IMG/VR virus record: IMGVR_UViG_3300043399_000877 | Coordinates: 186,001-250,000 of that record | Direction: 5' to 3' (one strand) | Source of the DNA: a virus | DNA: 64,000 nucleotides | Part shown: piece after piece, positions 9,607 to 44,798 of the stretch | How the letters are laid out: each line of letters begins with the position of its first letter | Numbering within the stretch: the first letter of the stretch is position 1 | Program-made: the position numbers and the translations under genes | Notes under the pieces: generated by a model | Database searches by the model: none | What the model saw: only the letters and a program-made list of their open reading frames with translations | What the model was told of the DNA's origin: nothing

Positions 9607-12306
9607 TTACACACTCCTAAATAAATCACCACCCATACCGCGCATGCTGTTGAGTGTTTGCTTTTCAATTTCATTAGTTTTTCTTATTTCCGATAATACT
9701 GCTACCATAGTACTATTTAATTGAATTAAGTATTTTATCAGGTTCTCTTGGTCAGTGCTGCTTCGTCCACCAGCAGTCTGTGTTACTGGTTGTGTTTTTG
9801 CTTGCCAGTCATTAGTAAAATATCGATCTAGGAAATCACCAGCTGGGGTATTTCTAGGAACGACTGCTTCGACTCCGTGTAGTGTTGCAACACTTTGATC
9901 TCCGAAATTTTGAAAACCACTAGTACCTTTTGCAAAACCAGACCCCATTGGGTCACCCATGGGAATGTCTGGTGACTCTGGGGTTTCTGTTTGTTCTGCA
10001 CCGGGCATGTATCCGCTTCTAGTCCACCTATTGAACATGCCAGCCAAATCTGCGTCTAAATCATTTTGAATACCCATTAAGTTTGCTGCACCGTATATGG
10101 TGTCACCAAGAAGGTCGGAAGTAAAAAGCAAACTTTCAACAGTGGCATTTGTGGCTTCTAATAATTCTGACGTATCAGCCTCATAACGTTCCTCTGCCAA
10201 AGTTGCTTTTTGTTCCGGTGTTACTGCTAGCCCGGCGTTAATTCTTTTTTCAATAATTGCACCTGCTTCATCACCAAAAAGTGCGCCTGCTGTGTACTTG
10301 TTGATACTTAAAATAAGACTATCAACTAGATTTTCAAAAAATCCAGAAATAGTATTTTTAAGTTCTGTACCATTTGGGCCTTCCCAAAAGTTAATTAATT
10401 GATTTTTTGCGAGATCAAATACGCTCCAAAATCCATCAACAATTGTTTTTAAAAATCCACCGGTTCTCAACTCACTGCCAGCGGCCTTTGCTGCTGCCGC
10501 CAATGCAGGATCCACCGCATTTTCACCATATCCCACATCAGCAACTTCACCATAAAAGAAATCTTTTAAAACTGGACCTATGTAGTTGGTTATTGCATCT
10601 TTAACTAAATTAAAAGTACTTACAAATCCTTCATAAATTACATCAAAGATTGTTTTTTCACCATTAAAAACTTGCTCAAAAGTAGTATAAATGTTTTCAA
10701 AAAGCCCACCAACTCTTTCGGTAGTCCTGCTGTCGGGGTCGCCCCCGGTTGTAACTTTTTTTCCAAAAAAGAAATCAATTAGATTATTTGTAACACGTTT
10801 TACGGTATCGAAAAACGCATCCATATTTTTTTCAAAATCTGGATCGCTTAAAAATTCAGTAAACCAATCTATAGCTTTGGTTACTGTGCCGTCTTTTCCA
10901 AAAAAGTAATTAAACAATCGATCGAGTCCAGATGAAAATCCATCTATACTTCCGTTATCACTTATCAATGTTAGAAGTTTTTCACCGAGTCGTTCGAGAG
11001 AACTAAATGCTTCGCTTTTTATAAATGCCGATATTAATCGTCCGCGAGCACTTTGTACGGTTTGTTCGAAATTACCAAATAGAGTAGTAAGTTTACTTCT
11101 TTGATCGGCTTCGAGTTTGTATTGTTCGGTGTTTATTTCAAGAACTTTGTTAAGTTCAAAAAGACTATCCAACATTGTGGCATACTCGGCAGTTATGCCA
11201 CCAGCTTGTCGCATTGCTGCTATCTGTTCTGTGCTGAATTGTTTCTGTAATCGATCTATCTGAGGTTTAAATTGTTTTAATTGATCTATAAAATCAACTT
11301 CGCTAATTTCACCACGAAACGCACGTTGCATAAGCGGACCTAAACCTTTTATTTGTGTCTGCATCAACACACCTAAGTCAGTTTGTGCAAGTCCGTCCAT
11401 AATATCTTCGAATCCGCTAGCAAGCCCGGGCATGCTGGAACGAACAAATGTCAATACTCCTTCAAGATTCTTTCTGTTTTCACCCTCGAGAGAATTAATC
11501 TGTCGTCGTAGTCCGGCATCTTGCTGCAATTGTGCCATTTCTTGGGCAAGCTGTTCACGTTGTTTTCCTGTGAGTTTTGCCAATTTATCCAATTGCATCA
11601 TGTATTCGCTACTGGATTCCATTAAACTTCGATCACGTAGTTCAATTCGTCTACCGGACATAAGTTGTGCATCCAAGTAAGTTGCAAGACTGCTGTTTAT
11701 TTCGTTAATTGTAAAACCCATGCCCATGAGTTCTTGACCGATCTTACTTGTGCGAAGATTTCTAGAAAAAATACCAAACTGTTTTGCGCCTTCGCTAGTG
11801 GTACCGCCCAGCTTTGCAAATAGTTGAGAATTGTTTCTAACAAGTGATGTAAAATCGTCAAATGCTACTTCACTTTCAGCAGCAGCCAGTCTCATATCAA
11901 AAAGACTGTTGTTAAAACTTGCACCGTACGTACTGAGATCACGGAATGCATCGGTCAACCCTTCGGTATAGCGTATTAGTTCCCCCATAGCCGTACCGGC
12001 ACCCAAAACCATTTCGGCAAAATCGCCCATGCGATCACCGCCGGTAATGAGTTCTTTACCGAAATAACCCAATCCCTTGACGCTGTCGGTTATACCGCTT
12101 ATAAAACCTTTGCGCGCTGCACCTTCATCCCTGATAGTTCGTGTATTGGCTTCTCTAGCTATTCTTTCTAATCGCGAAGCTTGATCTGTACCGTTGCGGC
12201 TGCGGCTAAGGGTGTCAACCAGTGCAGAAAGAGTGGCTTCACTTGCTACGCCAAACTTGCCACCTACATTTTTAATTTCTACTTCGTCAACCATTACCGA
12301 ATCCAA
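9607..12306 (-). CDS. Tail tape-measure protein (functional equivalent of T4 gp29)
   Basis: 899 residues, the longest minus-strand gene. Features of tape measures are a long helical body with hydrophobic stretches, Gly/Ala-rich segments and the C-terminal motif F-A-K-G-T-S-G-F-Q-N-F-G ... L-H-G-V-E-A-V-V-P-R, a signature seen near the end of many phage tape measures. It would set tail length and be exported through the tube. It is longer than T4 gp29 (590), suggesting a longer tail if length scales. Directly divergent from gp26, which here carries a frameshift extension typical of tape-measure chaperones. A late octamer lies 28-35 bases upstream of the start. Confidence 0.82.
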   Translation of the reverse strand: MDSVMVDEVEIKNVGGKFGVASEATLSALVDTLSRSRNGTDQASRLERIAREANTRTIRDEGAARKGFISGITDSVKGLGYFGKELITGGDRMGDFAEMVLGAGTAMGELIRYTEGLTDAFRDLSTYGASFNNSLFDMRLAAAESEVAFDDFTSLVRNNSQLFAKLGGTTSEGAKQFGIFSRNLRTSKIGQELMGMGFTINEINSSLATYLDAQLMSGRRIELRDRSLMESSSEYMMQLDKLAKLTGKQREQLAQEMAQLQQDAGLRRQINSLEGENRKNLEGVLTFVRSSMPGLASGFEDIMDGLAQTDLGVLMQTQIKGLGPLMQRAFRGEISEVDFIDQLKQFKPQIDRLQKQFSTEQIAAMRQAGGITAEYATMLDSLFELNKVLEINTEQYKLEADQRSKLTTLFGNFEQTVQSARGRLISAFIKSEAFSSLERLGEKLLTLISDNGSIDGFSSGLDRLFNYFFGKDGTVTKAIDWFTEFLSDPDFEKNMDAFFDTVKRVTNNLIDFFFGKKVTTGGDPDSRTTERVGGLFENIYTTFEQVFNGEKTIFDVIYEGFVSTFNLVKDAITNYIGPVLKDFFYGEVADVGYGENAVDPALAAAAKAAGSELRTGGFLKTIVDGFWSVFDLAKNQLINFWEGPNGTELKNTISGFFENLVDSLILSINKYTAGALFGDEAGAIIEKRINAGLAVTPEQKATLAEERYEADTSELLEATNATVESLLFTSDLLGDTIYGAANLMGIQNDLDADLAGMFNRWTRSGYMPGAEQTETPESPDIPMGDPMGSGFAKGTSGFQNFGDQSVATLHGVEAVVPRNTPAGDFLDRYFTNDWQAKTQPVTQTAGGRSSTDQENLIKYLIQLNSTMVAVLSEIRKTNEIEKQTLNSMRGMGGDLFRSV

Positions 12307-12341: not shown

Positions 12342-12352
12342 GGAGATTATAT

Positions 12353-13207
12353 ATGCATAATTCTGCCAATCCACTGTCAAGACATTTTAGACAACCCAAG
12401 TTATATATTAAATTACCCAGTAACGGAAATTTTTATCCGGATGGTGCCATTGATCGCACCACCAATAATGAATACCCGGTTTACAGTATGACAGCCAAGG
12501 ATGAATTAAGATTTAAAACTCCGGATGCATTGCTTAACGGACAAGCGACGGTGGATGTCGTTCAAAGTTGTATTCCAAATATTCGTGATGCTTGGTCAAT
12601 ACCCAGTATCGACGTTGACGCCATATTGATTGCTATAAGAATAGCAACTTATGGTGAAAAGATGGATATAACCACCACACTGCCCAACACCGAGATAGAA
12701 AAAACTTTTGAAGTTGATTTACGTCATTTATTGGATAACTTAGCCATTGCTGAATACGATAACGTTATTAAAATCGGAGATTTTACTATCGAAATAGCGC
12801 CGTTAAACTATCGTTCTTTTACAGAAACTGCTATGAAAACATTTGAAGAGCGAAGATTATTTCGAACTATAAACGACAGCGATCTTTCTGAAGAAGAAAA
12901 AATCAGTCGTTTTAACGAAAGTTTCAATCGTATAACCGAAATGAACATACGAATTGTTACTCGCAGCGTAGTATCTGTAAGATACAAATCTGAAGCGCCG
13001 GTGTTTGATCCAGATTACATAAACGAATTCTTTGACAACATTGACAAGGATGTGTTTAAGGCTATCATAAAACATGTTGAGGCCCAACGTGACCGATTCC
13101 GTATACCACCGTTAGAGGCTACCACTACCGAAGAAGAACAAGCTGCTGGTGCTCCGGATAAGTTTTCAATACCGGTTAACTTCGATCAATCAAATTTTTT
13201 CGCCTAA
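12353..13207 (+). CDS. gp26: gp26-like baseplate/tail assembly protein (0-frame product)
   Basis: 284 residues. The N-terminal half has the T4 gp26-type baseplate family pattern: L-Y-I-K-L-P-S-N-G-N-F-Y-P, then Y-P-V-Y-S-M-T-A-K-D-E-L-R-F and L-L-N-G-Q-A-T-V-D-V-V-Q-S-C-I-P-N-I, which I recognise from T4-like gp26 homologues. A CGGAGAT ribosome binding site precedes the ATG. In T4, gp26 is needed for the baseplate hub. Its last four codons are AAT TTT TTC GCC before TAA, which contain a canonical -1 slippery heptamer leading into a 76-codon extension. The normal product would be the short form and the frameshift product a 359-residue long form. Adjacent, divergent tape-measure gene supports a chaperone role. 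Confidence 0.85.
   Translation: MHNSANPLSRHFRQPKLYIKLPSNGNFYPDGAIDRTTNNEYPVYSMTAKDELRFKTPDALLNGQATVDVVQSCIPNIRDAWSIPSIDVDAILIAIRIATYGEKMDITTTLPNTEIEKTFEVDLRHLLDNLAIAEYDNVIKIGDFTIEIAPLNYRSFTETAMKTFEERRLFRTINDSDLSEEEKISRFNESFNRITEMNIRIVTRSVVSVRYKSEAPVFDPDYINEFFDNIDKDVFKAIIKHVEAQRDRFRIPPLEATTTEEEQAAGAPDKFSIPVNFDQSNFFA
13195..13201 (+). promoter_or_regulatory. Programmed -1 ribosomal frameshift site (T TTT TTC)
   Basis: In the gp26 reading frame the bases split as T TTT TTC, a textbook X XXY YYZ heptamer, three codons before the stop codon at 13205. A hairpin with a 5-bp stem (TGGTC/GACCA, 4-base loop) lies at 13219-13232, 18 bases downstream, and could stimulate slippage. The -1 frame is then open for 76 codons to a TAA at 13429-13431. 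Confidence 0.7.
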
Positions 13208-13431
13208 GGATCTCTAATTGGTCAGTTGACCAGATACTGGCCGAAGTAGAGGTCCTGGAGCAGCAAACCAAGCAGATGAAGTACAACCTCAGCAAGTTGT
13301 GCTGGCACATGCGCGGCGGGCTCAGCTTGACCGAAGCCTATGAGCTGAGCCCGGATGATCGGGAAGTAATGGGTAGATTGATCAAAGACAACTTTGAAGT
13401 GGCCAAGAAAACCGGCCAACCCTATTGGTAA
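13198..13431 (+). CDS. -1 frame extension of gp26 (tail assembly chaperone C-terminal domain, 76 codons after the shift)
   Basis: After slippage the frame continues R-L-R-I-S-N-W-S-V-D-Q-I-L-A-E-V-E and contains K-Y-N-L-S-K-L-C-W-H-M-R-G-G, then E-L-S-P-D-D-R-E-V-M and ends K-K-T-G-Q-P-Y-W. The Trp-x-M-R-G-x ... S-x-x-D-R ... K-T-G-x-P pattern is that of a small conserved protein found after gp26/gp51-type genes in T4-like phages as I remember them. No ATG or GTG with a ribosome binding site lies upstream of the conserved part; the first in-frame ATG (13276) would remove its first third. It is therefore most simply read as a frameshift product giving a 359-residue fusion. It ends one base before the convergent stop of the next gene. 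Base composition is visibly richer in G+C than gp26. Confidence 0.7.
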   Translation, partial: FRLRISNWSVDQILAEVEVLEQQTKQMKYNLSKLCWHMRGGLSLTEAYELSPDDREVMGRLIKDNFEVAKKTGQPYW

Positions 13432-30800: not shown

Positions 30801-31230
30801 AAGATACAAAATACTCTTTGGAAATAAAAGTGATCCAAACTTGCAAGCAACATTTAAAGTTATAAAAAATTCAGACCGAGTAGTAAATGATAACGAAATA
30901 AAGTCAAAAATAGTGCAATACATAAATGAGTTCTTTTCGCTAGACAATTGGGATTTTGGTGATACATTCTACTTTAGTGAGCTGTCAGCTTACATAATGA
31001 AGCAAATGAGTCCAGACATAACCAGCATTGTGATTGTCCCCAAGCAAGCGTCACAATCTTTTGGTAGCATGTTTGAATTAAAATGCTCAAGTGACGAAAT
31101 CTTTATAAGCAGCGCAGGTGTTGATGACATTGAAATAATTTCAGGAATCACAGCTGACCGGTTGAGAACAACCGGAAACATAATTACTACAACAGAACCA
31201 ACAAGTGATCTAGGAGGCACAGTTATATAA
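27832..31230 (+). CDS. gp6: Baseplate wedge protein gp6
   Basis: 1,132 residues against 660 in T4. The N-terminal baseplate-J-like segment is clear: R-E-N-Y-P-E-D-F-N-D-Y-I-E-S-S-E-Y, then D-L-I-A-F-L-G-Q-N-L-S-F-R and R-R-E-S-I-L-R-L-A-R-L-L-A-Y-N-P. These belong to the gp6 family that dimerises to form the inner baseplate ring. The extra length lies in beta-rich inserts after residue 250. The stop overlaps the ATG of the giant protein gene (TAATG), so the two are co-translated. Confidence 0.9.
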   Translation: MSSTDRQNGLLLAEDWKKIYQSFKNAEFKSYDFDTLRRTMIAYIRENYPEDFNDYIESSEYLALIDLIAFLGQNLSFRIDLNARENFIELAERRESILRLARLLAYNPKRNRPANGLLKIEAVSTSENIVDSNGFNVKGRTVLWNDTTNENWYEQFIKIINAALPSSNTFGKPVNSQVVANIPTEQYRFNSTLQTVPVFTFSKTINNLNTVFEIVSTAVSGGVIYEESPVTGQQVSFIYRDNGQGPSSSNTGFFMHFRQGSMQRSDFSIDFPVPNQRVNIDTDNINQSDIWLYRLDNQNSETELWTRVDAVEGNNVIYNSLNKKIRNVYNVLTRENDRVSLIFTDGVFGNLPQGNFRLYYRTSNNRNFAISPNEIRNVSIRIPYISRSGRNEIITLYLDLKTSVNNASASETDAEIKSRAPSTYYTQNRLITGEDYNIGPLGVSQDILKVKSINRTASGISRYYDIVDPTGKYSKTNHFSDDGVIYEEDLENQLEFTFNTFTDVNFVVENTISPLLSDIKVRDFYLKKYPSIDVMTSADIKWNATSNNTNISTGVFENSAKLPYQVGSFTSSILKFIETGAMVKFVPPAGYYFNANSQLVAGTPSKIEDRMYLWTKVVSVSGDGTTVSNSVGPVVLNDEIPTGAVLSKIKQKFSINLSSSIKTRIADQIFSYKIFGLRYDRTTRQWSIITESNLNVKDQFSLLNEGDKTNQKLDSSWVILFSTNGEKYTVTYRGYRYVFESEKQVRFYYDSVTRTFNNRTGRIIKDSIKVLNINSIPNGTTPFTQDYDWEVVSEFTNDLGYINNNKIQISFFDNDSDGIIDDPDLFENIVGTNSLVFFKKSDSDGIENYKYVNQTDENIFVVNSQREINVSLYNSGDIFYIKNTNVFRKLTKNPTRLTMIYDYKARNGRGGLKFQYIHSSDENNRIDPSSTNIIDLYLLTKQYDTQFRQYLNGAVIAKPEAPTPDYLFRTYGNEINKIKSISDEVIYHPVRYKILFGNKSDPNLQATFKVIKNSDRVVNDNEIKSKIVQYINEFFSLDNWDFGDTFYFSELSAYIMKQMSPDITSIVIVPKQASQSFGSMFELKCSSDEIFISSAGVDDIEIISGITADRLRTTGNIITTTEPTSDLGGTVI

Positions 31231-34200
31231 TGTCAACTTTTAAGCAAAATGAATCAGCTCTACCAGTACCGGGTACAAACGAAAAAAAGAGCGAGTATTT
31301 GCTACCAAAGTTCTTTAGAACTGATACTAACAAAAAATTTCTAGGTAGCACAGTTGACCAACTTATATCCTCTGGCTCTGTTGAAAAAATAAATGCGTTT
31401 GTTGGACGAAGAACAGCAAAATCTAAAGATATAACAAAAGTTGAAAACTACTTGCCGGATGTAACTCCTGATAGAGAAAATTATCAGTTTGAACCATCAT
31501 TAATAGAAGTTGATGAGCTTGATAACGTAACATACTATAAGGATTATATAGATTATGTTGGTCAGTTAAAAAACTTTAAATCACAAGCAGCTAACCATAG
31601 TAAGATGAATAGTCAAGAATTTTATGTTTGGAATCCAAATATAGATTTTGACAAGTTTACAAACTTTAGAGAATACTATTGGTTGCCAAACGGACCGTTG
31701 TCAATTCCAGTTTATGGAAAATCACGAGAGATTGAAAGTACTTATACTGTAAAAACTGAGAGAGATGACGATAACGTTGCATACGTGTTTTCACCAAACG
31801 GATTTACGAGAAATCCCACATTAACCCTGTACCGTGGAGAAACATATTACTTTGAAATCAATGCCAAAGGTTACGGCATGGCTTTTGCTATTAACAGAAC
31901 TTTTCTTGATTTAGATCCAGTAAAAGTAAATGATCGTGGTCAAAATGTGAGCGCACTTTATACCAAGGGAGTTGACAGCTCAGAAGACTATGTTGAAAAG
32001 GGGACAATTAAATTTAAAGTTCCTGACGATGCGCCGGATACTTTGTTTTATGTAAGCGAAACTGACATTAACGTAAGTGGTGTTATAAACATAAAAAATA
32101 TTGAAGAAAATACCTTTATTGATGTAGACAACGAGATTGTTGGCAAAAAAACTTATAACTCAACTCAGGGGATTGCATTTTCAAATGGTATGAAGGTGAG
32201 TTTTTTGGGAGATGTTACTCCTGAAAAATACAACACAGGTAACTGGTATGTTGAGGGTGTCGGTGATGCAATACGTTTGGTTTCAGAAATCGATCTAGAC
32301 ATTCCTGCACAATTTACTGAAGTAAAAAATACTCCTTTTGATGGTGTAGAATTTGACACTTTTCCGTTAGAGAATTCTTCCGGATTCCCTTCAGAAAAAG
32401 ATTATATTGTTATAAATCGTGCAAGTGCAGACGGCAATCCGTGGAGTAGATACAATCGTTGGTTCCACCAAGATGTTATTTTGCAAAGTGCAAAAATAAA
32501 CAATCAGTCAATAGCATTAGATCAAGACGCTAGAGCAAAAAGACCTATTATTGAATTTGAAGCAGGGCTTCGCCTTTTCAATCATGGAACTCAAGTAAAA
32601 GGTATTGTTGATTTAGTGGATAATTTTACTCGTGACGTCTTTAGCACTGTAGAAGGCAGTCTTGGCTATTACGTAGATAACACACCGTTGTCTGATGGCA
32701 TGAGAGTTTTGTTTACTGCTGATACGGATCCGCGAGTGCGTGGTAGAATATATCAAGTAAAGTTTATAGTTCACAATGCAAAGACAATAATTACGCTGAT
32801 TCCAACTGACGATAGCGAGCCAGCTGTTGATCAAGTTGTTGTGGTAAGAATGGGTGAAAAATTCGCCGGTTCTACATTTTATTATTCCGGATCAAACTGG
32901 CGCCAATCACAGAAAAAAACAAAAATAAATCAGCATCCGTTGTTTGATTTATATGATTCAAACGGGGTGTCATTTGCTAACAAGTCAGTGTACCCAGCAT
33001 CCAACTTTGTTGGTAATAGAATATTTGGATATAAAATAGGAAGCAGCGTAGTTGATGCTGAATTGGGATTTTCGTTAACATATCAAAATATTGCAAATAT
33101 TGGTGACATTGTTTTTGAATTTGACTTGTTGAAAAAATCGTTTATATATCAAAAAGATAACACAAATTTTGAAATTACCACCGACACTGGATTTGTAAGA
33201 AAATACAATTACCTTGGAAATAGATTTGAATATGTTTCGGGTTGGGTTAAATCTGATGAACCAAGCAAGCAATATGTTATTAGACAATATACTGCTTCTG
33301 GATTAAATGAATCATTTAAAATAGATGTTTATAAGGATTCTGCATCACTTAATGATTTAGACGTTAAAGTATTCGTAAACAACAATTTTAAATTTATAAC
33401 TAAAGATTATACTTTAGTTAAGATTTTTAGTGATTTGTACGTAAAGTTTAATTACAGTTTAGAAGAAAATGATAATGTTGTTATAAAGTGCCATAGTTCT
33501 GCAAATAAAACAGCTAATGGTTATTATGAAATACCTTTAAACTTTGAAAAAAATCCGTTAAATGAAAATATAACAGACTTTACCCTTGGGCAAGTTAATG
33601 ATCACGTTTCTTCTATTATAGAAGATCTTACAGCATTTTCTGGAACCTTCCCGGGATCTGGTAACTTGCGTGATCTTGGAAATTATAAAGTTTTTGGTAA
33701 AAAGTTTTTACAACACAGTGGTCCGGTAAACTTGGCCCTGTTTAACGTAACAAACCAAACAGCAAATGCCGTTAAAGCTATAAGAAAATCTAAAAAAGAT
33801 TACGCACTCTTTAAAAAGCAATTTTTAAAAGCAGCATACGACTCGCCTTTTACTGGTGGTGCAAGAGAACATGTGGATTATATTTTTTCAGTTTTAAATG
33901 CTGATAAAACTGAAAGTATGCCATATTTTTCAAGCGACATGGTTCCTTATACCGGAAACAGATTTGTTGAATACAATGTAATCGATGCTGGAAGTGTATA
34001 TTATGCCCTACCCGAAGTGTTTTCTTTGGATAACTTGTGCACCAGAGCAGTGTTGGTTTATATAAACGAAAACCAGCTAATACATGATATTGACTATATC
34101 TTTGACGCAGACGGTTTTGTAAAAATAAATAAACCGCTAGCAATTGGCGATGTTATACAAATATCTTATTATGAAAATACAAACGGTAGTTTTGTTCCAC

Positions 34201-37200
34201 AAACTCCAACAAAGTTGGGATTATATCCAAAATTCGTTCCTGAGATATATGTAGATGACACTTACTTAGAACCCAAAACACTCATACGTGGGCACGACGG
34301 TAGTGTAACATTGGCTTACGGTGACTATCGTGACGAGTTAATTCTTGAACTTGAAAAAAGAATATACAATAATATAAAAGTCAAGTACGATCCAAACATT
34401 TTAGATGTCCGTGAGTTTGTTGGTGGATCATTTAGAAACACTGGTTTTTCAAGTAAAGAAATAGATGATATACTAATAACTGACTTTTCACAGTGGATAA
34501 GTTCCCTGGGACCGGTTGATTATAACACAAATACGGCATGGGACGTTTCAAATCCGTTTACATATAATTATAAAAATGCACAAACAGTTACTGATGCAAC
34601 AATAAGCGGATCTTGGAGAAAGATCTTTATGGATCTGTACGACACTGACCGCCCGCACACCCATCCTTGGGAAATGTTGGGGTTCTACAATAAACCATCT
34701 TGGTGGGAAACAGTATATGGTCCTGCACCATACACAAGTAACAACCTAATTCTATGGAATGACATTGAACAGGGAGTAATACGTGAACCAAATAAGTCAG
34801 TAATTAAAAATTCAAAGTATACTAGATTTGGTATAAAATCTTATCTTCCAGTTGACGAAAATGGAAACCTGCTGAGTCCGTATGAAAATAATTATATATC
34901 TCAGATTTCTGTTTACGAGACTAACAAGCCGTTTGTGTTTGGTGACTGGTCACCTGCAGAAACAGCTTGGAGAAAAAGTAGCGAATACCCGTTTGCAATT
35001 ATAACAGCTTGGATGGTCTTACAACCACCAAAAGTTTTTGGATTGGGATTTGATCGTGCAAACATAGTGCGAGATATAAGTGGATCGTTAGTTTATAGAC
35101 ATACTCAAAAGAGAATAAAACTTTCCGATATACTTTTCCCTCAAAAAACAGACACCGTATGCAAAATAACTGGTAATTTGTTAAGCAAGTCTTTGACTGC
35201 CGGTTTAGTAAATTATATTTCCGAATATTTGACAGACGAAACTGCGAGATACGACGAATATTGTTCACGATACAAGAAATTACAAAATAATCTTGCATTT
35301 AGACTTGGTGGTTTTGCAGAAAAATCTAAACTTAAATTAGTGCTTGATAGCAGATCGCCGCTTAACAAGGGTAATGTGTTTGTTCCAGATGAAAATTACA
35401 AAATAATACTCAACAAAAGCAGTGCTCTTGAAACAGTAACTTATAGTGGTGTAATAATTGAAAAACTTTCACAAGGTTTTAGAATTTCCGGTTACGACGT
35501 TGATTCTCCATATTTTGAATTTAATCAACCAACTGTAACACAAACGGATGCATCCGTTGTTATCGGTGGGGTGAGCGAATCTTTTGTCGAATGGAATGAA
35601 AATAATACCTATGCATTAGGCACTGTTGTAAGGTATAACGGATCCTATTATAGAGCAAAAATATCCCACACAAGCGGAGCATCATTTGATGCATCAAAAT
35701 TTGCACAATTGCCCGACCTACCGTTAGTGGGTGGCCGTCGAATACTTATAAGAAAGTTGTTTGATCAAAATACATCTATTATGATGTATGGAACTATTTT
35801 AACAGATATACAGCATGTGGTTGACTTTCTTCTAGGATATCAAAACAGATTAAAAAATATTGGATTTAAGTTTGAATATGTAAATCCCAATACACAGGCA
35901 TTGGAAGACTGGTTACTTGCAGCAAAAGAATTTGTATTCTGGACTACACAAAATTGGGATGCTGGAAGCGTTATAACACTAAGTCCGAGCGCAAATAAAC
36001 TTATATTTGAAAAACCGTATTTTGTAGTTGATAACATTTATGATAGATTCTACAATTATAAAATATTAAAATCTGATGGAACTCCACTTTCTCAGGATTT
36101 AATAAACACTGTTAGAAGTAGCAGTAATGAGTTTAGTCTTGTTACAAAAACAACTACTGAAGACGGAATATATTTTGTAAAGTTACCATTGGTACAAAAA
36201 GAACATGTGGTTCTTGTTGATAACCGAACAGTATTTAACGACGTAATATACGATACTGCACCGGGATATAGACAAGAAAGACTATTAGTTGTCGGTTATC
36301 GTACAGATAACTGGAACGGAAGTTTGAATATACCGGGATTTGTTTATGATCAAGCATTTGTTCGCCAATGGACTCCATGGCAAGATTATCAAGTTGGTGA
36401 TTTGGTAAAATACAAGGAGTTTTACTATAGCTGTAATCAGCACCATGCCGGTCTCGAGCTGTTTAATGACGATTTTTGGAACATTCTACCAGAAAAACCA
36501 ACAACTGCGCTGCTGCCAAACTGGGATTACAAGGCCGGTCAAATAACGCAGTTTTACAGTCTTGAGGTCGAAAACTTTGACACAGAGCAACAACGGCTCG
36601 CACAACACTTGATAGGCTATCAGAAGAGACAGTATCTTGAAAATATAATAAATGACGAGGTAAGCCAATATAAATTCTATCAAGGATTTATACAAGACAA
36701 AGGTACAAAGAATGCTCTTGAAAAATTGTTTAATGCACTTGGAAATAGTGAAAAAGACAGCCTTGAGTTTTATGAAGAATGGGCAATAAGAGTTGGACAA
36801 TACGGTGCTGTTGATACTTTTAAAGAAGTAGAGTTTAAACTTGATGAACGAAAGTACAGACTTGAACCACAAACTGTTGAGCTTGTTGGTATTGAAGATC
36901 CCGACCGCACAGATCTGATTTATCAACTTCCAAAAAGTGAAGTTTACCTAGCACCTGTTGATTATAACAACAATCCGTTCCCACCGATGTATGTTAACAA
37001 AACATACACAAAAAATTCTGGTTATGTAAATCCAACAGATGTTCAATTTACCGTTACTACTTATGACAATATACTATCTCTTGATATTAATCAAATAAAA
37101 GTGGATGATTATGTATGGGTACTAAATCAAAATCAAAGTTGGGACATTTTAAAAGTAGTTAACACTGATTATAAAATAATTCAAATAACTTCTGAAAATA

Positions 37201-40200
37201 ATCAATATTTGATAAAATTCGATAATGTTGTATCCATTAATCCTGGAGATATAGTTGGTATATTCAGTAATGATACAATATTGCAAAAACTATACAAAGT
37301 TAATGAAATTTCTTTAGACACAATATATGTAGATAGTGAAAATGATTTAACTTCAATAGATTTTGAAAGCCTAATATCAACAACGTTTGTTTTTGAGTCA
37401 AGAAGATTTGAAACTTTTGAAGACGTTAATAATTCACTTAAAAATAATCTATATTATGATAATTTAGGTAAAATTTGGATAGACTCTGACGTGAATAACA
37501 AGTGGGTAGTTCTTGAAAATATTCCCACCGGTGAGTCAGTATCTAATATAACTCCGGTGACTGGATATGCAAATTCCGGTTATGGAAAATCATTAGCTGT
37601 AAGCGCAGATAATGCTATTATGGTGGTAGGATTGCCATCCAGTAAGACGGTTGGTGCAATTTTTGTATATCGCAGAACTACTGAATCAACACCTTTTAAT
37701 TCTAAAAATAACTTAATTCAAGTAATTTCTCCAATATCGGGTATAGGTTCAACTCCTAGTTATGGTCATGCTGTTGAAATAACAGCTGATGGCAAATTTA
37801 TCTTTGTGTCAGCACCCAATGCTTCAAATGTAAAAACTTTTTATACTGGGGAAATTAATACAGAAATATCACAGGCATACAACAAAGGTGATATTGTAAG
37901 TGATAATGGCAAACTCTGGAAAGCTAAAAAGAATATATCTTATTCTAATGCAGCAGACTTCCTGGATGACTGGGAACCAACTTATGCTATAAGTCATAAT
38001 AGCGATGGTGTGTCTTCTGGACTCGACAATCAAGGCTTGGTTTTTATATATGAAAAAGATATAACTTCAAATGTTTATATATTTAAAGATGCAATAACGA
38101 GCCCCTTCCCAGATCAAAATGAGCAATTCGGTTATACAATAAAATCATCAATAGAGAATAATGTCTACACGTTGTTTGTTGGTGCGCCCGGTAGCGGAAC
38201 TGTTTATGTAATTGACAATGCCAATGGAAGTTTTGGTTATAGGACAGCAAACGCATACGTTGGTAGTTACAAAGACACTTATTACTATTCCGAAGATGAT
38301 ATAGTTTGGCACAGTGGAAACTTTTATAAAGCAATAACAAATGTTGAATTTGAAGCAACTTTTGATGCTGAAAAATGGACACTTCTTTCAAACGCGGTGG
38401 CTTATACGTCTGCAATTCCGGGCATGGTTCCTGACACTGGATTACTGGGTTCTGAAGATGTGGGTAAAGCGTTCGATGTGAGTGATGATGGCTTGGTAAT
38501 TGCTGTTGTTGGAAAAAGAAGTTTAGAAAACGGCCCCAACAATGTTGTTAGCATTTATCGTATGATAGACGGCAATTATACATACGCTCAAACTATACAA
38601 AGTTTGAATAATTACGAATCTTTTGGAACTTCAGTATCTGTATCAGCTGACGGAAACAAGGTAGCAATCGGTGCGCCCAATAACGATTCACAAGGTGTAG
38701 ATAACGGGCAGGTGTATGTTTACAGACTTGTAAACACAAATTACACATTAGAACAAACTATTGTAAGTCCTGCAAACGAATTTAACGAAATGTTTGGGCA
38801 AGTGGTTCAGTTCAACGGATTAAACCTGTTAATTGGGAGTAAAAACGGTGATACAAAAGTTGCAACAACATTTGATGAAAACAGTACTACATTTGATAAT
38901 GGATTTACAGTTTTTAGTTCAACAAATATAAACACCGGAAACATATATGTTTATGAAAATTTAAGTAATTATTTGGTTTATGCTGAAACAAAATATGCAA
39001 CAGCACTAGGCACATATGAACTTACTGGATTTGTTGCCGTAGACAATCACATATATGTAGCTTTGCCAACTTTTGGAAATACTGGAAAAATAGTTGACAT
39101 TAGATCTGATAACCAAAATGCATGGAATGAAATTGCTTCACCAGTTGACGCTGTGGATCTAAACCGTATTAAAAATGTTTATCTTTACAGTACTGAAACA
39201 AACAGCATTTTGTTAAATCTGGATTATGTTGATCCAAGACAGGGAAAAATAGCAGGTCCAGCAGACCAAGAAATAGCTTTTAAAACATATTACGATCCTG
39301 CGGTTTACAATTATACAGACGGTGAGCAAAATGTTATAGTTGATGAGGATATGGCTTGGACTTTCCAAAATGTAGGAAAACTTTGGTGGGATGTGAGTAC
39401 TTCAAAATGGTTTAACCCTTACCAGGGCGACTCACAATATCGAGTTACATACTGGAATCAACTTCTGCCAGATTCAACTGTTGATGTGTACGAGTGGGTG
39501 GAAACAACACTATTACCAAGCCAATGGGATAGTATTGCTGATACAAATGAGGGATTTGCAAGAGGTGTAAGTGGTCAGAGCCTGTATGGTGATGCAGTTT
39601 ACACTTCTCGTAAAATATTTAATGATTCAAATACTGAATATACCGACTTGTATTATTATTGGGTTAAGAACAAAAGAATACTGCCCAATACAACGTTCAG
39701 AAGCTTGACTGCTGAAGCAGTAACCAATCTTATAAGAAATCCGCAATCATTTGGATATAGATTTATTGCTTTTACTGGTACTGATCGGTTTACAATTTAT
39801 AACAGTAAATCATTGATTGATGAAAACAATGTTGTACTACATGTATCATATTACAATGACAACGCACCCATTAATTTAAATATTCATAACGAGTATCAAA
39901 TACTGAGTGAAAACCTAAGTACAAGCAGGCCATCAAACGAAGTAGAGAAAAAATGGATAGACAGTCTTGTCGGTTATGATATAAATCGCAAAACGGTACC
40001 TGATGCATCACTTCCTGTTAAAAACAAATATGGTATTTTGAATTCACCTAGACAGGGAATGTTTGTAAATCGCACATATGCATTGCAACAAACAATTGAA
40101 AGAATCAACTCTGTTTTTACAGAAAATAACATTGCAGACGGGTATGATTTGACACTGCTGTATTCCAAAGATTCTGTACCAAATGCACTATCTGGGTTGT

Positions 40201-43200
40201 ATGATGTAGTTGTTGACACTCATAGCGAATTGCGCTTTGTGAATGTTGCAAGAGTTGAACAGGCAAAGTTAACACCGATTATTGAAGATGGAAGAATAAT
40301 TGAAATACAGATAGATAATCCAGGCCGCGGCTACAAGTTCGCTCCTAATGTTTTTGTAAACGACACATACGGTCGTGGAGCAACATTTAGTGTGACTTTA
40401 GATACTCTTGGAAAAATTGCAAGTGTTGAAGTTATAAAATCTGGAGAAAATTATTCAGAAGAATCAAGTATCTATGTTCGAGAATTCTCAGTATTAGTAA
40501 ACACTGATGAAACATCCGATAACAAGTGGACGATATATGAGTGGAACGTCTTAACTCAAGAATGGAATAGATCAATTGTACAGAGTTACGATACTACACA
40601 ATATTGGTTCTTTACTGACTGGTACAGCCCAGGTTACTCAAGTGCAACAAAAATAGATTATGTTGTAGATTATCCATATCTTTTAAGCTCTATACAAGAC
40701 AAAATAGGCGACATAACCAAAGTAAACAACCTTGGATCCGGTGGTTGGGCAATACTCAAGAAAATAGACAGCAAAAATACAACAGACTACACTGTCAATT
40801 ATCAAACCATTGCTAGACAAAATGGTACTATACAATTGAGTACAAAACTTTACGATTTTGCTGCAAACCTATCCGGATTTGACGCAAACATTTATGGAAC
40901 CGCAAGTTATGACACTGAGCCAGTTGTTGAACTTAGAAAAATATTTGAATGTTTAAAGAACGACATATTTGTGGGTGATCTTGAAATTGAGTGGAATAAA
41001 TTGTTCTTCTCAAGCTTGCGTTATGTATTGAGTGAACAACCAAATGTTGATTGGGTATTCAAAACTTCGTTTGTTAAAGTAAAACACAATTTTGGTAAAT
41101 TAGATCAAAAGGTTACTTTTAAAAATAACAATTTGGATAGTTACCAAGATTATGTAAATGAGGTAAAGCCGTATAGCACTAAGATTAGAGAATTTGTAAG
41201 TTCTTACGAACAAACTGATCCTACTGGAACAGCCACATTTGACTTTGACAATCCAGCTTTTTATAATCCAGAAACTATGAAAATAGAAAATACCTATGAA
41301 GTAGTGCTTGGTGGAAAACTAGCCGGAGTTTCCGATAACACAAATAACATATGGCTTGACAACGTGGGGTATAAAGTTGTTGAGATACGAATAATAAATT
41401 CAGGAAAGGACTTTGCAGTCCCGCCAAAAGTAATGGTTGACGGCGGAACGGTTCCGGTTAAGGTTTACCTACAACGTGGAAAAATAAACTACATTGAAGT
41501 ACTGCCACATAACAAGAGATACCTAACAGCCCCAGAAGTTGTGATAGAAGTATTGGATGAAGATAACGAGTCCAAGCCAAAAGCCATTGCAATATTGGGC
41601 GATGGTTTAACAAAAACGTTCAATATAGGAATGAATTTTGATCGTATATCCAAGACTCCACTGTATCAAAGCGTAAGGGCAACTGAACAATTTTTTGGAA
41701 CAGGGACTAAAACCGAATTTGCGCTTAAATGGCCAATAAACATTGATAATAAAAAAGTAGAAGTTTTTGTTGATGGAACAGAAATTCTATTTGACGAATA
41801 TGATGTTCTAAACGTGTCTGATGACAAAAAAACATACAAACGCATGTTGGGTATGCTTGAATTTAAACAGCCTCCGGTACAAGGTAGTAAAATAATAATA
41901 AATTATGATCGCGATGTATCAATGTTTGATGCAGTTGATCGCATAACATATTTTTACAAGCCTTCAGCCGGCATGCCTGGAGAGTTAGCACAACTTATGT
42001 CAGGAATTGAATATGGCGGAGTAAATGTAACCAGTTACGGATTTGGTAACGAACAAGGGTATGGGGCCGGTGGATTTGGTACAGTGCCGTGGGACACATA
42101 CGACTTGCTTTCCGACGACCGTCAGTACACAATTAATACTAGAAGAAGAAGACTGACTCTTGAAAAACCGTTTGACCGCGGAGAAATATACAACGTATAC
42201 CTTAATAATGTTCGCGTAGATGATCCAAATTACGGAACAGTCAGACCAGTTACCAACCCCAATGCAATGCTAAAAAGTATAATTGGAAACGGAACTTCGT
42301 TGACCTATACAATACCAAATACTCTAGTATATGTGGATGGCGATACTCTTATTTTTAGAAAGAGCACAAGTGACGGAAGTTTTGCTCCGAGAGACTTTAG
42401 TTATGACAGCATAGTACAGGGCGGGACCTTCCTGCCAGGATCAGCATCTGGTCTTGCTGCAAGCGACATAACAGTAGACGGTGAAGGTTTTGTAACTCGC
42501 ACAACAAGCGAGGGACCAGAAGAACTAGTTCCTGGACAGATAACAGACACACTTGACGTTAGTGTATATCATTCACCAACCGACGGATCAGGTCTCATAA
42601 GTTCAATTATACATAAAATTTACAATGGTCAAAAGACTTTTGCAATACCGGGTGATCCGATCACAAATGAAGCTATTTTTGTAAAAATAGAAAATGAGAT
42701 ATTGGGCGACGACGAGTATACAATCAATCATAAAAACGATGCTATAGTACTTAAAAATTCATATCCAGACGGTACATTCCTGTCAATACTAACAGTTGGA
42801 CCGAGCGGTAAAAACATTTATGAATATAACAAATTTGTTATAAGAAATAGAGTTTACAAATATCAACTTCCAGTAGTTTATCCATCAAACGCAGTGGTTG
42901 TATTGTCTCTAAATGGCGAGTTTTTGAGACAAAATGTTGATTACTCGGTAGCAGTGTCATCATCCGGAAAATTAGAAATAATATTCCCAACTGATAAGGT
43001 GATTGCAAACGATGTGGTAAATTATATAATATTTGCAGATACCGTAAACAATTTCAGTAGAGTTTCAATAGACAACACATTTATACCAGATGGTATAAAA
43101 ACTGTACATAAATTTGACGGTATGAAAAACCCTGTACCATTTAATACAAAACCGCTGGCACATAAAGTTTTAGTAAAAGTTGATGATACGATTCTAAATG

Positions 43201-44798
43201 CTGGATATTCGAAAAAGTTTGTAATACAACCAGGAGCAACATATAAAGTTGATACTTGGGCAATTGAATCTTCTGTAACTATAACAGAGTCAACTATAGT
43301 TGTTTTCCTTGATGGTCAAGAATTACCAAAATCTAGATACAATTGGAATCCATCCACAAAGTCTATAGAATTAATAGAACCAGAAAAATTCACAACTGGG
43401 TCAGAATTAGAAGTTACTGCTATAGACAATGCAGATTATTACTTTGTGGATACAGTAGTTGACGTTTTTGACATTTATAATGATCCACTCAATATGGAAC
43501 AAATATTGTCAGGTCGCAATAGTTTTGTTCTTACAGCCTTTGATGGAACAACCTATAACATAAACAAATTTACAGTTTCTAAAAATACAATAACTATGGA
43601 TTCATATTTAAATAATTTACCAGAGATTGTTTTACAAAACCCGCTTATGGGTATTGTTGTGCCTCCGCTAATTTATACTGTAAATATCAGAAATATACGT
43701 TACGTTGCTTCGTCTACTATGACGTTCGATCAGCCACCACCAGTGGGATCAAAGGTTGAAATATATCAGTTTAGTAACCATGATATAAACAACTTTGAAA
43801 GAGTGTCTTATGATCTTCTGGAAAGAAACAGTTTGATTTTAGATCCAAATGACGAAACTCAAAGAAACCTAGTGTCAAGTGGATTTATTAACCTGCGTTC
43901 GCCAGTTTATGGCACAAATTATGCATGGGTTATAAAAAATGGAAAACTGTTAACTCCTAATGCTGATTATGTTATTACACTTGACAAAGCTGCAATCGAA
44001 ATGAAAACACAGTTAATTACTGGTGATCATATTGAAGTTTTGACTTTTAACTCGGTTCCGAGCTTAAAGCGTTACGGATTCCGCATATTTAAGGACATGC
44101 TTGATAGATTCTCATATAAGAGAATCAATCAAAATAAAGTTTTTAGACTTGCAAAGCCTTTGAATTTTTATGACAAAAACATAACGCTTGTGTCTGCGGA
44201 AGGACTTTTTGTACCAAATCGAATAAACAACGTGCCGGGCATATTGTTTATTGGTAGTGAACGTATAGAATACTTTGAAATAAATGGAAATGTTATTTCA
44301 GATATACGCCGAGGCACTCTTGGTACCGGTGTGAGTGAACAATACGCAGTTGGGGCATTGGCATATGATCAAAACACTTACGAAAACGTAAAATATGCTG
44401 ACGAGTTTGTAACACAAACGTTCACATCAGACGGGATACAAACAAGATTTACTCTAGACTTTGCTTTAACTGAATGGATGCAAAGATTTGGATTAAGCGA
44501 AAATGACCTAAAAGACATGTTCGATGTCAAAGTAGCAGGCCGCCGTTTGGAAAAGAATTCAACTAAAAAGTATAACCCAAATATTGAGTTGGATAGCCCA
44601 GAAGCTGATCAGACAGTGCAGTCCGAGTACTACATAGACGTGAACAATAACCAACTTGTGTTGAGAAAAGTACCAGTTAACGGAGTTAAAATTGTAATAA
44701 TGAGAAAACTCGGAAAAATATGGAATGATTATGGTAAGTCTCTTGCTGATAGTTTAACTGATGTGTCGGCTTTCTTGCTAGATACAAGTGGGCAATAA
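31230..44798 (+). CDS. Giant baseplate/tail protein, 4,522 aa (gp7 position), mosaic of binding modules
   Basis: The frame is open for 13.5 kb without interruption. The first 250 residues (F-Y-V-W-N-P-N-I-D-F-D-K-F-T, then F-R-E-Y-Y-W-L-P-N-G-P) suggest a wedge protein at the T4 gp7 position; T4 gp7 has 1,032 residues. Embedded modules are: four chitin-binding-like repeats at about 1450, 1714, 2214 and 2350 (pattern Y-x-x-G-D-x-V-x-x-x-G-x-x-Y/W-x-A/C); an FG-GAP-type beta-propeller at about 2110-2560 with blades such as F-G-T-S-V-S-V-S-A-D-G-N-K-V-A-I-G-A-P; and a C-terminal third (about 3480-4480) of repeated beta-sandwich units with V-x-V-F-V-D-G-x-E-I or similar. It probably forms the outer wedge plus a host-surface-binding apparatus. 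Late expression with gp6 is expected. Confidence 0.75.
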   Translation: MSTFKQNESALPVPGTNEKKSEYLLPKFFRTDTNKKFLGSTVDQLISSGSVEKINAFVGRRTAKSKDITKVENYLPDVTPDRENYQFEPSLIEVDELDNVTYYKDYIDYVGQLKNFKSQAANHSKMNSQEFYVWNPNIDFDKFTNFREYYWLPNGPLSIPVYGKSREIESTYTVKTERDDDNVAYVFSPNGFTRNPTLTLYRGETYYFEINAKGYGMAFAINRTFLDLDPVKVNDRGQNVSALYTKGVDSSEDYVEKGTIKFKVPDDAPDTLFYVSETDINVSGVINIKNIEENTFIDVDNEIVGKKTYNSTQGIAFSNGMKVSFLGDVTPEKYNTGNWYVEGVGDAIRLVSEIDLDIPAQFTEVKNTPFDGVEFDTFPLENSSGFPSEKDYIVINRASADGNPWSRYNRWFHQDVILQSAKINNQSIALDQDARAKRPIIEFEAGLRLFNHGTQVKGIVDLVDNFTRDVFSTVEGSLGYYVDNTPLSDGMRVLFTADTDPRVRGRIYQVKFIVHNAKTIITLIPTDDSEPAVDQVVVVRMGEKFAGSTFYYSGSNWRQSQKKTKINQHPLFDLYDSNGVSFANKSVYPASNFVGNRIFGYKIGSSVVDAELGFSLTYQNIANIGDIVFEFDLLKKSFIYQKDNTNFEITTDTGFVRKYNYLGNRFEYVSGWVKSDEPSKQYVIRQYTASGLNESFKIDVYKDSASLNDLDVKVFVNNNFKFITKDYTLVKIFSDLYVKFNYSLEENDNVVIKCHSSANKTANGYYEIPLNFEKNPLNENITDFTLGQVNDHVSSIIEDLTAFSGTFPGSGNLRDLGNYKVFGKKFLQHSGPVNLALFNVTNQTANAVKAIRKSKKDYALFKKQFLKAAYDSPFTGGAREHVDYIFSVLNADKTESMPYFSSDMVPYTGNRFVEYNVIDAGSVYYALPEVFSLDNLCTRAVLVYINENQLIHDIDYIFDADGFVKINKPLAIGDVIQISYYENTNGSFVPQTPTKLGLYPKFVPEIYVDDTYLEPKTLIRGHDGSVTLAYGDYRDELILELEKRIYNNIKVKYDPNILDVREFVGGSFRNTGFSSKEIDDILITDFSQWISSLGPVDYNTNTAWDVSNPFTYNYKNAQTVTDATISGSWRKIFMDLYDTDRPHTHPWEMLGFYNKPSWWETVYGPAPYTSNNLILWNDIEQGVIREPNKSVIKNSKYTRFGIKSYLPVDENGNLLSPYENNYISQISVYETNKPFVFGDWSPAETAWRKSSEYPFAIITAWMVLQPPKVFGLGFDRANIVRDISGSLVYRHTQKRIKLSDILFPQKTDTVCKITGNLLSKSLTAGLVNYISEYLTDETARYDEYCSRYKKLQNNLAFRLGGFAEKSKLKLVLDSRSPLNKGNVFVPDENYKIILNKSSALETVTYSGVIIEKLSQGFRISGYDVDSPYFEFNQPTVTQTDASVVIGGVSESFVEWNENNTYALGTVVRYNGSYYRAKISHTSGASFDASKFAQLPDLPLVGGRRILIRKLFDQNTSIMMYGTILTDIQHVVDFLLGYQNRLKNIGFKFEYVNPNTQALEDWLLAAKEFVFWTTQNWDAGSVITLSPSANKLIFEKPYFVVDNIYDRFYNYKILKSDGTPLSQDLINTVRSSSNEFSLVTKTTTEDGIYFVKLPLVQKEHVVLVDNRTVFNDVIYDTAPGYRQERLLVVGYRTDNWNGSLNIPGFVYDQAFVRQWTPWQDYQVGDLVKYKEFYYSCNQHHAGLELFNDDFWNILPEKPTTALLPNWDYKAGQITQFYSLEVENFDTEQQRLAQHLIGYQKRQYLENIINDEVSQYKFYQGFIQDKGTKNALEKLFNALGNSEKDSLEFYEEWAIRVGQYGAVDTFKEVEFKLDERKYRLEPQTVELVGIEDPDRTDLIYQLPKSEVYLAPVDYNNNPFPPMYVNKTYTKNSGYVNPTDVQFTVTTYDNILSLDINQIKVDDYVWVLNQNQSWDILKVVNTDYKIIQITSENNQYLIKFDNVVSINPGDIVGIFSNDTILQKLYKVNEISLDTIYVDSENDLTSIDFESLISTTFVFESRRFETFEDVNNSLKNNLYYDNLGKIWIDSDVNNKWVVLENIPTGESVSNITPVTGYANSGYGKSLAVSADNAIMVVGLPSSKTVGAIFVYRRTTESTPFNSKNNLIQVISPISGIGSTPSYGHAVEITADGKFIFVSAPNASNVKTFYTGEINTEISQAYNKGDIVSDNGKLWKAKKNISYSNAADFLDDWEPTYAISHNSDGVSSGLDNQGLVFIYEKDITSNVYIFKDAITSPFPDQNEQFGYTIKSSIENNVYTLFVGAPGSGTVYVIDNANGSFGYRTANAYVGSYKDTYYYSEDDIVWHSGNFYKAITNVEFEATFDAEKWTLLSNAVAYTSAIPGMVPDTGLLGSEDVGKAFDVSDDGLVIAVVGKRSLENGPNNVVSIYRMIDGNYTYAQTIQSLNNYESFGTSVSVSADGNKVAIGAPNNDSQGVDNGQVYVYRLVNTNYTLEQTIVSPANEFNEMFGQVVQFNGLNLLIGSKNGDTKVATTFDENSTTFDNGFTVFSSTNINTGNIYVYENLSNYLVYAETKYATALGTYELTGFVAVDNHIYVALPTFGNTGKIVDIRSDNQNAWNEIASPVDAVDLNRIKNVYLYSTETNSILLNLDYVDPRQGKIAGPADQEIAFKTYYDPAVYNYTDGEQNVIVDEDMAWTFQNVGKLWWDVSTSKWFNPYQGDSQYRVTYWNQLLPDSTVDVYEWVETTLLPSQWDSIADTNEGFARGVSGQSLYGDAVYTSRKIFNDSNTEYTDLYYYWVKNKRILPNTTFRSLTAEAVTNLIRNPQSFGYRFIAFTGTDRFTIYNSKSLIDENNVVLHVSYYNDNAPINLNIHNEYQILSENLSTSRPSNEVEKKWIDSLVGYDINRKTVPDASLPVKNKYGILNSPRQGMFVNRTYALQQTIERINSVFTENNIADGYDLTLLYSKDSVPNALSGLYDVVVDTHSELRFVNVARVEQAKLTPIIEDGRIIEIQIDNPGRGYKFAPNVFVNDTYGRGATFSVTLDTLGKIASVEVIKSGENYSEESSIYVREFSVLVNTDETSDNKWTIYEWNVLTQEWNRSIVQSYDTTQYWFFTDWYSPGYSSATKIDYVVDYPYLLSSIQDKIGDITKVNNLGSGGWAILKKIDSKNTTDYTVNYQTIARQNGTIQLSTKLYDFAANLSGFDANIYGTASYDTEPVVELRKIFECLKNDIFVGDLEIEWNKLFFSSLRYVLSEQPNVDWVFKTSFVKVKHNFGKLDQKVTFKNNNLDSYQDYVNEVKPYSTKIREFVSSYEQTDPTGTATFDFDNPAFYNPETMKIENTYEVVLGGKLAGVSDNTNNIWLDNVGYKVVEIRIINSGKDFAVPPKVMVDGGTVPVKVYLQRGKINYIEVLPHNKRYLTAPEVVIEVLDEDNESKPKAIAILGDGLTKTFNIGMNFDRISKTPLYQSVRATEQFFGTGTKTEFALKWPINIDNKKVEVFVDGTEILFDEYDVLNVSDDKKTYKRMLGMLEFKQPPVQGSKIIINYDRDVSMFDAVDRITYFYKPSAGMPGELAQLMSGIEYGGVNVTSYGFGNEQGYGAGGFGTVPWDTYDLLSDDRQYTINTRRRRLTLEKPFDRGEIYNVYLNNVRVDDPNYGTVRPVTNPNAMLKSIIGNGTSLTYTIPNTLVYVDGDTLIFRKSTSDGSFAPRDFSYDSIVQGGTFLPGSASGLAASDITVDGEGFVTRTTSEGPEELVPGQITDTLDVSVYHSPTDGSGLISSIIHKIYNGQKTFAIPGDPITNEAIFVKIENEILGDDEYTINHKNDAIVLKNSYPDGTFLSILTVGPSGKNIYEYNKFVIRNRVYKYQLPVVYPSNAVVVLSLNGEFLRQNVDYSVAVSSSGKLEIIFPTDKVIANDVVNYIIFADTVNNFSRVSIDNTFIPDGIKTVHKFDGMKNPVPFNTKPLAHKVLVKVDDTILNAGYSKKFVIQPGATYKVDTWAIESSVTITESTIVVFLDGQELPKSRYNWNPSTKSIELIEPEKFTTGSELEVTAIDNADYYFVDTVVDVFDIYNDPLNMEQILSGRNSFVLTAFDGTTYNINKFTVSKNTITMDSYLNNLPEIVLQNPLMGIVVPPLIYTVNIRNIRYVASSTMTFDQPPPVGSKVEIYQFSNHDINNFERVSYDLLERNSLILDPNDETQRNLVSSGFINLRSPVYGTNYAWVIKNGKLLTPNADYVITLDKAAIEMKTQLITGDHIEVLTFNSVPSLKRYGFRIFKDMLDRFSYKRINQNKVFRLAKPLNFYDKNITLVSAEGLFVPNRINNVPGILFIGSERIEYFEINGNVISDIRRGTLGTGVSEQYAVGALAYDQNTYENVKYADEFVTQTFTSDGIQTRFTLDFALTEWMQRFGLSENDLKDMFDVKVAGRRLEKNSTKKYNPNIELDSPEADQTVQSEYYIDVNNNQLVLRKVPVNGVKIVIMRKLGKIWNDYGKSLADSLTDVSAFLLDTSGQ

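Follow-up and report, generated by a model that had tools for sequence, protein, structure and literature searches.

The window analysed here is a 64,000-nucleotide stretch of viral DNA (positions 186001-250000 of a 381,886-base virus record). It contains a gp26-like gene, a slippery heptamer at the 3′ end of that gene, an open -1 frame that continues beyond the stop codon, a predicted downstream RNA hairpin, and a large divergent gene on the opposite strand. The features of the locus are as follows:

9607..12306, minus strand: divergent neighbour, 899 aa; probable tape-measure or virion structural protein
12342..12345, plus strand: GGAG, Shine-Dalgarno-like, 7 nt upstream of the gp26 ATG; read directly from the sequence
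12353..13207, plus strand: gp26-like 0-frame gene, 284 aa, matching PF12322 and phrog_150; putative short chaperone form (TAC-N equivalent)
13195..13201, plus strand: slippery heptamer T_TTT_TTC, in register; slip codons invariant in 30/30 clade members
13202..13206, plus strand: 5-nt spacer from heptamer to stem, overlapping the 0-frame stop codon
13201..13431, plus strand: -1 frame extension, 76 codons plus stop; putative gp51 C-terminal domain counterpart (TAC-NC equivalent)
13207..13256, plus strand: downstream RNA hairpin, probable stimulator; folding z about -4 to -5, with pairing and compensation in 7 relatives

The gp26 frame ends AAT TTT TTC GCC TAA, with the 0-frame UAA stop at 13205-13207, and the heptamer lies in the register assigned to it by the initial annotation, such that two tRNA-Phe could re-pair on TTT TTT. 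From 13201 the -1 frame stays open as far as a stop codon at 13429-13431 and translates as FFRLRISNWSVDQILAEVEVLEQQTKQMKYNLSKLCWHMRGGLSLTEAYELSPDDREVMGRLIKDNFEVAKKTGQPYW. Its 76 codons and its core, WHMRGG...KKTGQPYW, are as initially described (W-x-M-R-G ... K-T-G-x-P), and the predicted shift product has the length then proposed, 359 residues (283 + 76). The earliest ATG, GTG or TTG in the -1 frame is the ATG at 13276, 27 codons beyond the slip. Of the 70 long open stretches in the window, gp26 alone combines an in-register X_XXY_YYZ among its final 20 codons with a -1 frame that continues for 40 codons or more. An A_AAT_TTT overlapping the heptamer in the window is not kept in relatives, where the pre-slip codon is AAT, ACT, GAT, AGT or CGT, ending in T in every clade member.

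The 0-frame product matches the PF12322 T4_baseplate family (E=9.6e-12, 45.5 bits, cut-off 24.5) and phrog_150, a baseplate hub family (E=7e-14). Its AlphaFold model (pLDDT 88) has the fold of this family: T4-like baseplate hub assembly and baseplate proteins in BFVD are matched with TM 0.82-0.88, and the top viral structure is a "baseplate hub assembly protein, T4-like" (TM 0.88). A search of solved structures by sequence and fold found no match to the product or model, the best PDB match having an E of 0.48. The T4 gp26 (208 aa) and gp51 (249 aa) proteins both match PF12322 and phrog_150; the gp51 match reaches the end of phrog_150, and gp51 also matches phrog_634, the short cyanophage gp51 family. 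Both T4 proteins are listed as hub assembly chaperones (PMC3004832). The genome to which the window belongs has one PF12322 copy, and a search of it for a second gp51-like paralog found none, leaving the frameshift as the only evident source of a long form.

The initial annotation took the neighbouring gene to be a divergent tape measure. The orientation holds, since a large divergent ORF adjoins gp26 in 29/30 loci, nearly all of them similar to that of the window by BLAST, but the tape-measure identity is only partly supported. Where complete, the neighbour proteins are 720 to more than 1200 aa long. The neighbour in the window matches phrog_14121 (virion structural, E=2.7e-4), and T4 gp29 gave no match. 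Among the neighbour proteins scanned, single members match tape-measure families, and single members match endolysin or peptidase families; endolysin and peptidase domains are common in tape measures. Judged from these similarities, the neighbour is probably a tape-measure or virion structural protein. The portal gene (phrog_213, E=2.4e-115) is the next gene on the neighbour's side, as it is in phages RaK2 and 121Q. One relative carries an unusually long version of the neighbour, of 1172 aa (L014:270-3785, minus strand). Elsewhere in the window (31230-44798, plus strand), an ORF of 4522 residues probably encodes a giant tail or adsorption protein; its product contains a carbohydrate-binding module (PF02839) and an FG-GAP repeat (PF14312).

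Conservation and selection at the slip site

Forty-nine relatives were retrieved by a viral-contig search, and 30 sequences, including the window, were non-redundant around the junction (33-62% identity). The alignment of related gp26 loci that the initial annotation had called for gave T_TTT_TTC in register together with an open -1 frame in 30/30 members, counts that come from related sequences and so are not independent events. The -1 ORF extends 70-76 codons beyond the 0-frame stop in all 30, despite that stop lying one or several codons past the heptamer. Conservation of the heptamer and the -1 ORF in 30 non-redundant relatives excludes chance. We then compared codon columns that show at least 90% amino-acid conservation and leave the codon free to vary. 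Among 44 such columns, the only invariant ones are the two slip codons, TTT (30/30) and TTC (30/30), and TTC is the minority Phe codon elsewhere in the gp26 genes of the clade (TTT 277 versus TTC 87). The heptamer is thus conserved beyond the need of the amino acids that it encodes. The -1 ORF is itself under purifying selection, with a median pS of 0.75 and pN of 0.28 in 70 pairs, and 1662, 970 and 2805 changes at the first, second and third codon positions. Beyond the clade, TTTTTTC is found no more than 45 nt from the stop in 75/75 distinct further loci, 68 of them from cyanophages. In the most distant clade members, L046 and L047 (identity 34-35%), both the heptamer and the -1 ORF persist, although this ORF is without the WxMRG core and has a different end.

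It is very improbable that the -1 ORF encodes an independent small protein translated from a start of its own, by stop-start coupling or from an internal site, as has been annotated for cyanophage gp51 and for CDS 595 of phage 121Q. The -1 ORFs of the cyanophages and 121Q do have an in-frame ATG shortly past the slip, and a TAATG stands in place of the lost heptamer in Vibrio phage K447 and Pseudomonas phage Cygsa01, so that reinitiation seems to substitute for slippage in a few lineages. In the window clade, however, no start codon is conserved upstream of the -1 core, in keeping with the absence of a usable start reported by the initial annotation, and in four relatives (L002, L003, L022, L029) the WxMRG core itself holds the first start of the -1 frame, an ATG at codon 38. 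At the junction, the conserved FFR-x-(R/K) residues precede any conserved start, invariant slip codons would be unnecessary for a protein with its own start, and T4 gp51 has the corresponding domain fused in frame. The absence of a conserved start upstream of the core leads us to reject translation from a separate start for this clade.

The RNA downstream of the heptamer was initially described as a hairpin 18 bases after the slip site. A hairpin is indeed predicted, but its best-supported stem starts 5 nt downstream, and the earlier reading had captured its upper part. The lower stem of 10 bp (13207-13216 paired with 13247-13256) begins 5 nt past the heptamer, within the 5-9 nt spacing applied to -1 frameshift structures, and is followed by an upper stem of 9 bp (13218-13226 paired with 13236-13244). 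The lower stem pairs completely (100%) in seven gapless relatives, with 3/10 pairs changed on both sides, compared with 30-61% paired for slid controls. Across the 30 clade members, the 60 nt downstream of the heptamer have a mean z of -1.46, versus -0.14 for upstream control stretches of the same genes. A search for a hairpin common to all 30 members found none; only the near relatives share it, and elsewhere the efficiency of slippage could therefore depend on the heptamer alone.

The covarying stem also bears on transcriptional slippage, whereby RNA polymerase would insert an extra base in the T6 run, and translation of the edited mRNA would yield the long form. A run of six identical bases, extended to seven in phages phiM19 and VmeM32, is compatible with this mechanism. 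Polymerase slippage would favour longer runs, however, and in nearly all relatives the run has exactly six bases before a C, whereas a covarying RNA stem at a 5-nt spacing fits slippage of the ribosome; we consider an origin in transcription quite unlikely. A sequencing error or a decayed gene is refuted by the recurrence of the same split and an intact -1 ORF in 30 non-redundant clade members and in independently sequenced cultured phages, and by the purifying selection on the -1 frame. The invariant slip codons, the selected -1 ORF that has no start of its own in several relatives, and the covarying stem make a programmed -1 ribosomal frameshift the best explanation, and this comparative evidence sustains the original proposal.

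The -1 extension and T4 gp51

The -1 ORF alone had no match in Pfam and weak matches only in PHROGs (E 0.06 or more). Profile comparison was more informative. Aligned with hhalign, the -1 ORFs of the window clade matched the C-terminus of T4 gp51 (58.5%, E=9.6e-5), and those of the cyanophages and their relatives did so at 97.8% (E=8.7e-13), whereas reversed controls gave E values of 0.36 or worse. The window-clade ORFs also matched those of phages Atu_ph07, Phosso, RaK2, 121Q and Hallingskeid (99.6%). The direct match between the window-clade and cyanophage ORFs is weak (24.6%, E 8e-4), and the link between them runs through T4 gp51. Identification of the -1 ORF as the counterpart of the gp51 C-terminal domain is thus supported moderately by sequence and strongly by position. 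The T4 gp26 protein is of the same family as the 0-frame product and lacks the C-terminal part that gp51 carries; it is to this part that the -1 extension corresponds. In T4 and its near relatives (RB49/JSE, Stupor, VP8, KP15) the short and long forms are encoded by two paralogous genes, whereas here they would be produced from one gene by slippage. Homology suggests that this single frameshifting gene most likely does the job of the two T4 paralogs.

Two homologies argue for a chaperone role like that of lambda G/GT, one between the 0-frame product and T4 gp26 and gp51, the other between the -1 ORF and the C-terminus of gp51, and the view that gp26 is the G/GT equivalent of a T4-like phage is upheld to that extent. 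As with lambda gpG and gpGT, a short and a long form would come from one locus through a -1 shift near the 3′ end, next to a probable tape-measure gene. That gene is divergent here, whereas it lies downstream in the lambda type. The lambda slip site, GGGAAAG, differs from T_TTT_TTC, and the likeness to lambda is not one of demonstrated sequence or fold.

We conclude that gp26 is very probably made as short and long forms of a tail assembly chaperone through a programmed -1 ribosomal frameshift, and we infer the following course in vivo. Ribosomes translating gp26 would arrive at U_UUU_UUC (13195-13201), and the majority would read on to the UAA at 13205-13207 and release the short form of 284 residues. 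The hairpin 5 nt downstream may pause a fraction of the ribosomes, which would go back one base as both tRNA-Phe re-pair on UUU UUU. Slipped ribosomes would then produce the 359-residue long form, to which the gp51 C-terminal domain counterpart has been added. The two forms together would constitute the tail assembly chaperone, like T4 gp26 plus gp51 and, by function, lambda gpG plus gpGT, and would most likely hold the tape-measure protein while hub and tail are being assembled.

Proposed short and long forms across T4-like phages

The heptamer and -1 ORF are found in cultured jumbo phages (Atu_ph07, Phosso, RaK2, 121Q, Hallingskeid), and also in cyanophages, Aeromonas phages, Cronobacter phage S13, Vibrio phage ValKK3, Delftia phage PhiW-14 and Rhizobium phage LG08. 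Cyanophages P-SSM5, S-SM1 and S-CAM22 have the same T_TTT_TTC at the end of gp26 and a -1 ORF in the same position, and the heptamer is kept in 68/68 distinct P-SSM5-like loci. The cyanophage -1 ORF is shorter, often contains an ATG in frame, and usually appears in annotations as gene 51 in its own right. Variant slip sites are TTTTTTG in RL38J1 and T7 in phiM19 and VmeM32. In Vibrio phage K447 (L155, 2223) and Pseudomonas phage Cygsa01 (L063, 2809), the TAATG is a stop/start overlap, which suggests that reinitiation replaced slippage in these two phages. A separate long gene 51 is present in T4, RB49-like JSE, VP8, Acinetobacter phage Stupor and KP15. This pattern of distribution, read without a tree, somewhat favours a frameshift as the ancestral arrangement of the gp26/gp51 pair across the T4 superfamily, from cyanophages to jumbo phages of 350-490 kb, with lineages switching later to duplication (T4, RB49, Acinetobacter phages, KP15) or to stop-start reinitiation (K447, Cygsa01). 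Frameshift, duplication and reinitiation would then be three solutions to one assembly problem, which can now be compared directly.

Tail assembly chaperones of T4-like phages were identified by Vladimirov, Gautam and Davidson (Virology 2022, 566:9-15), whose title emphasises a mechanism other than frameshifting. According to the PRFect paper (PMC10274946), which draws on that work, some T4-like phages have one short gene plus one long fusion gene in place of frameshifting, and a further paper (PMC12846349) refers to the 2022 study for poly-T -1 slippery sequences in the chaperone genes of T4-like phages. The latter paper also gives an invariant GTTTTT for the chaperone of the Vandenendeviridae. 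As described in these sources, the T4-like and Vandenendeviridae chaperones have TAC-N and TAC-NC forms and poly-T -1 slip sites, as proposed here. A frameshifting tail chaperone in T4-like phages is therefore already known, and the present locus is a further well-supported case, from a jumbo-phage clade. Our analysis adds the jumbo clade of the window, the evidence from codons and covariation, and a map of the three routes to the long form, although part of these additions may already be contained in the 2022 study. The initial annotation recognised neither that description of T4-like tail chaperones nor the -1 ORF as a gp51 counterpart.

Comparison strongly indicates that the two genes of T4 correspond to a single one in large T4-like phages, and gp51 of T4 can plausibly be regarded as the long form of gp26. 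The small genes labelled "gp51" or "hypothetical" after gp26 in many phage genomes probably encode C-terminal parts of a fusion protein. In the viral structure library, the gp26 model (12353-13204) also matched, with a TM of about 0.45-0.5, uncharacterised proteins some 500 residues long from phages such as Erwinia phiEaH2 and Special G and Ralstonia RSF1. As judged from modelled structure, these may be tail chaperones of other jumbo phages that have escaped recognition. GenBank records of cyanophages and T4-like phages (for example L057, L061, L153 and L154) either miss the gp51 C-terminal piece or list it as a gene of its own that starts after the slip site, and the split gp51 annotations in such records should be joined.
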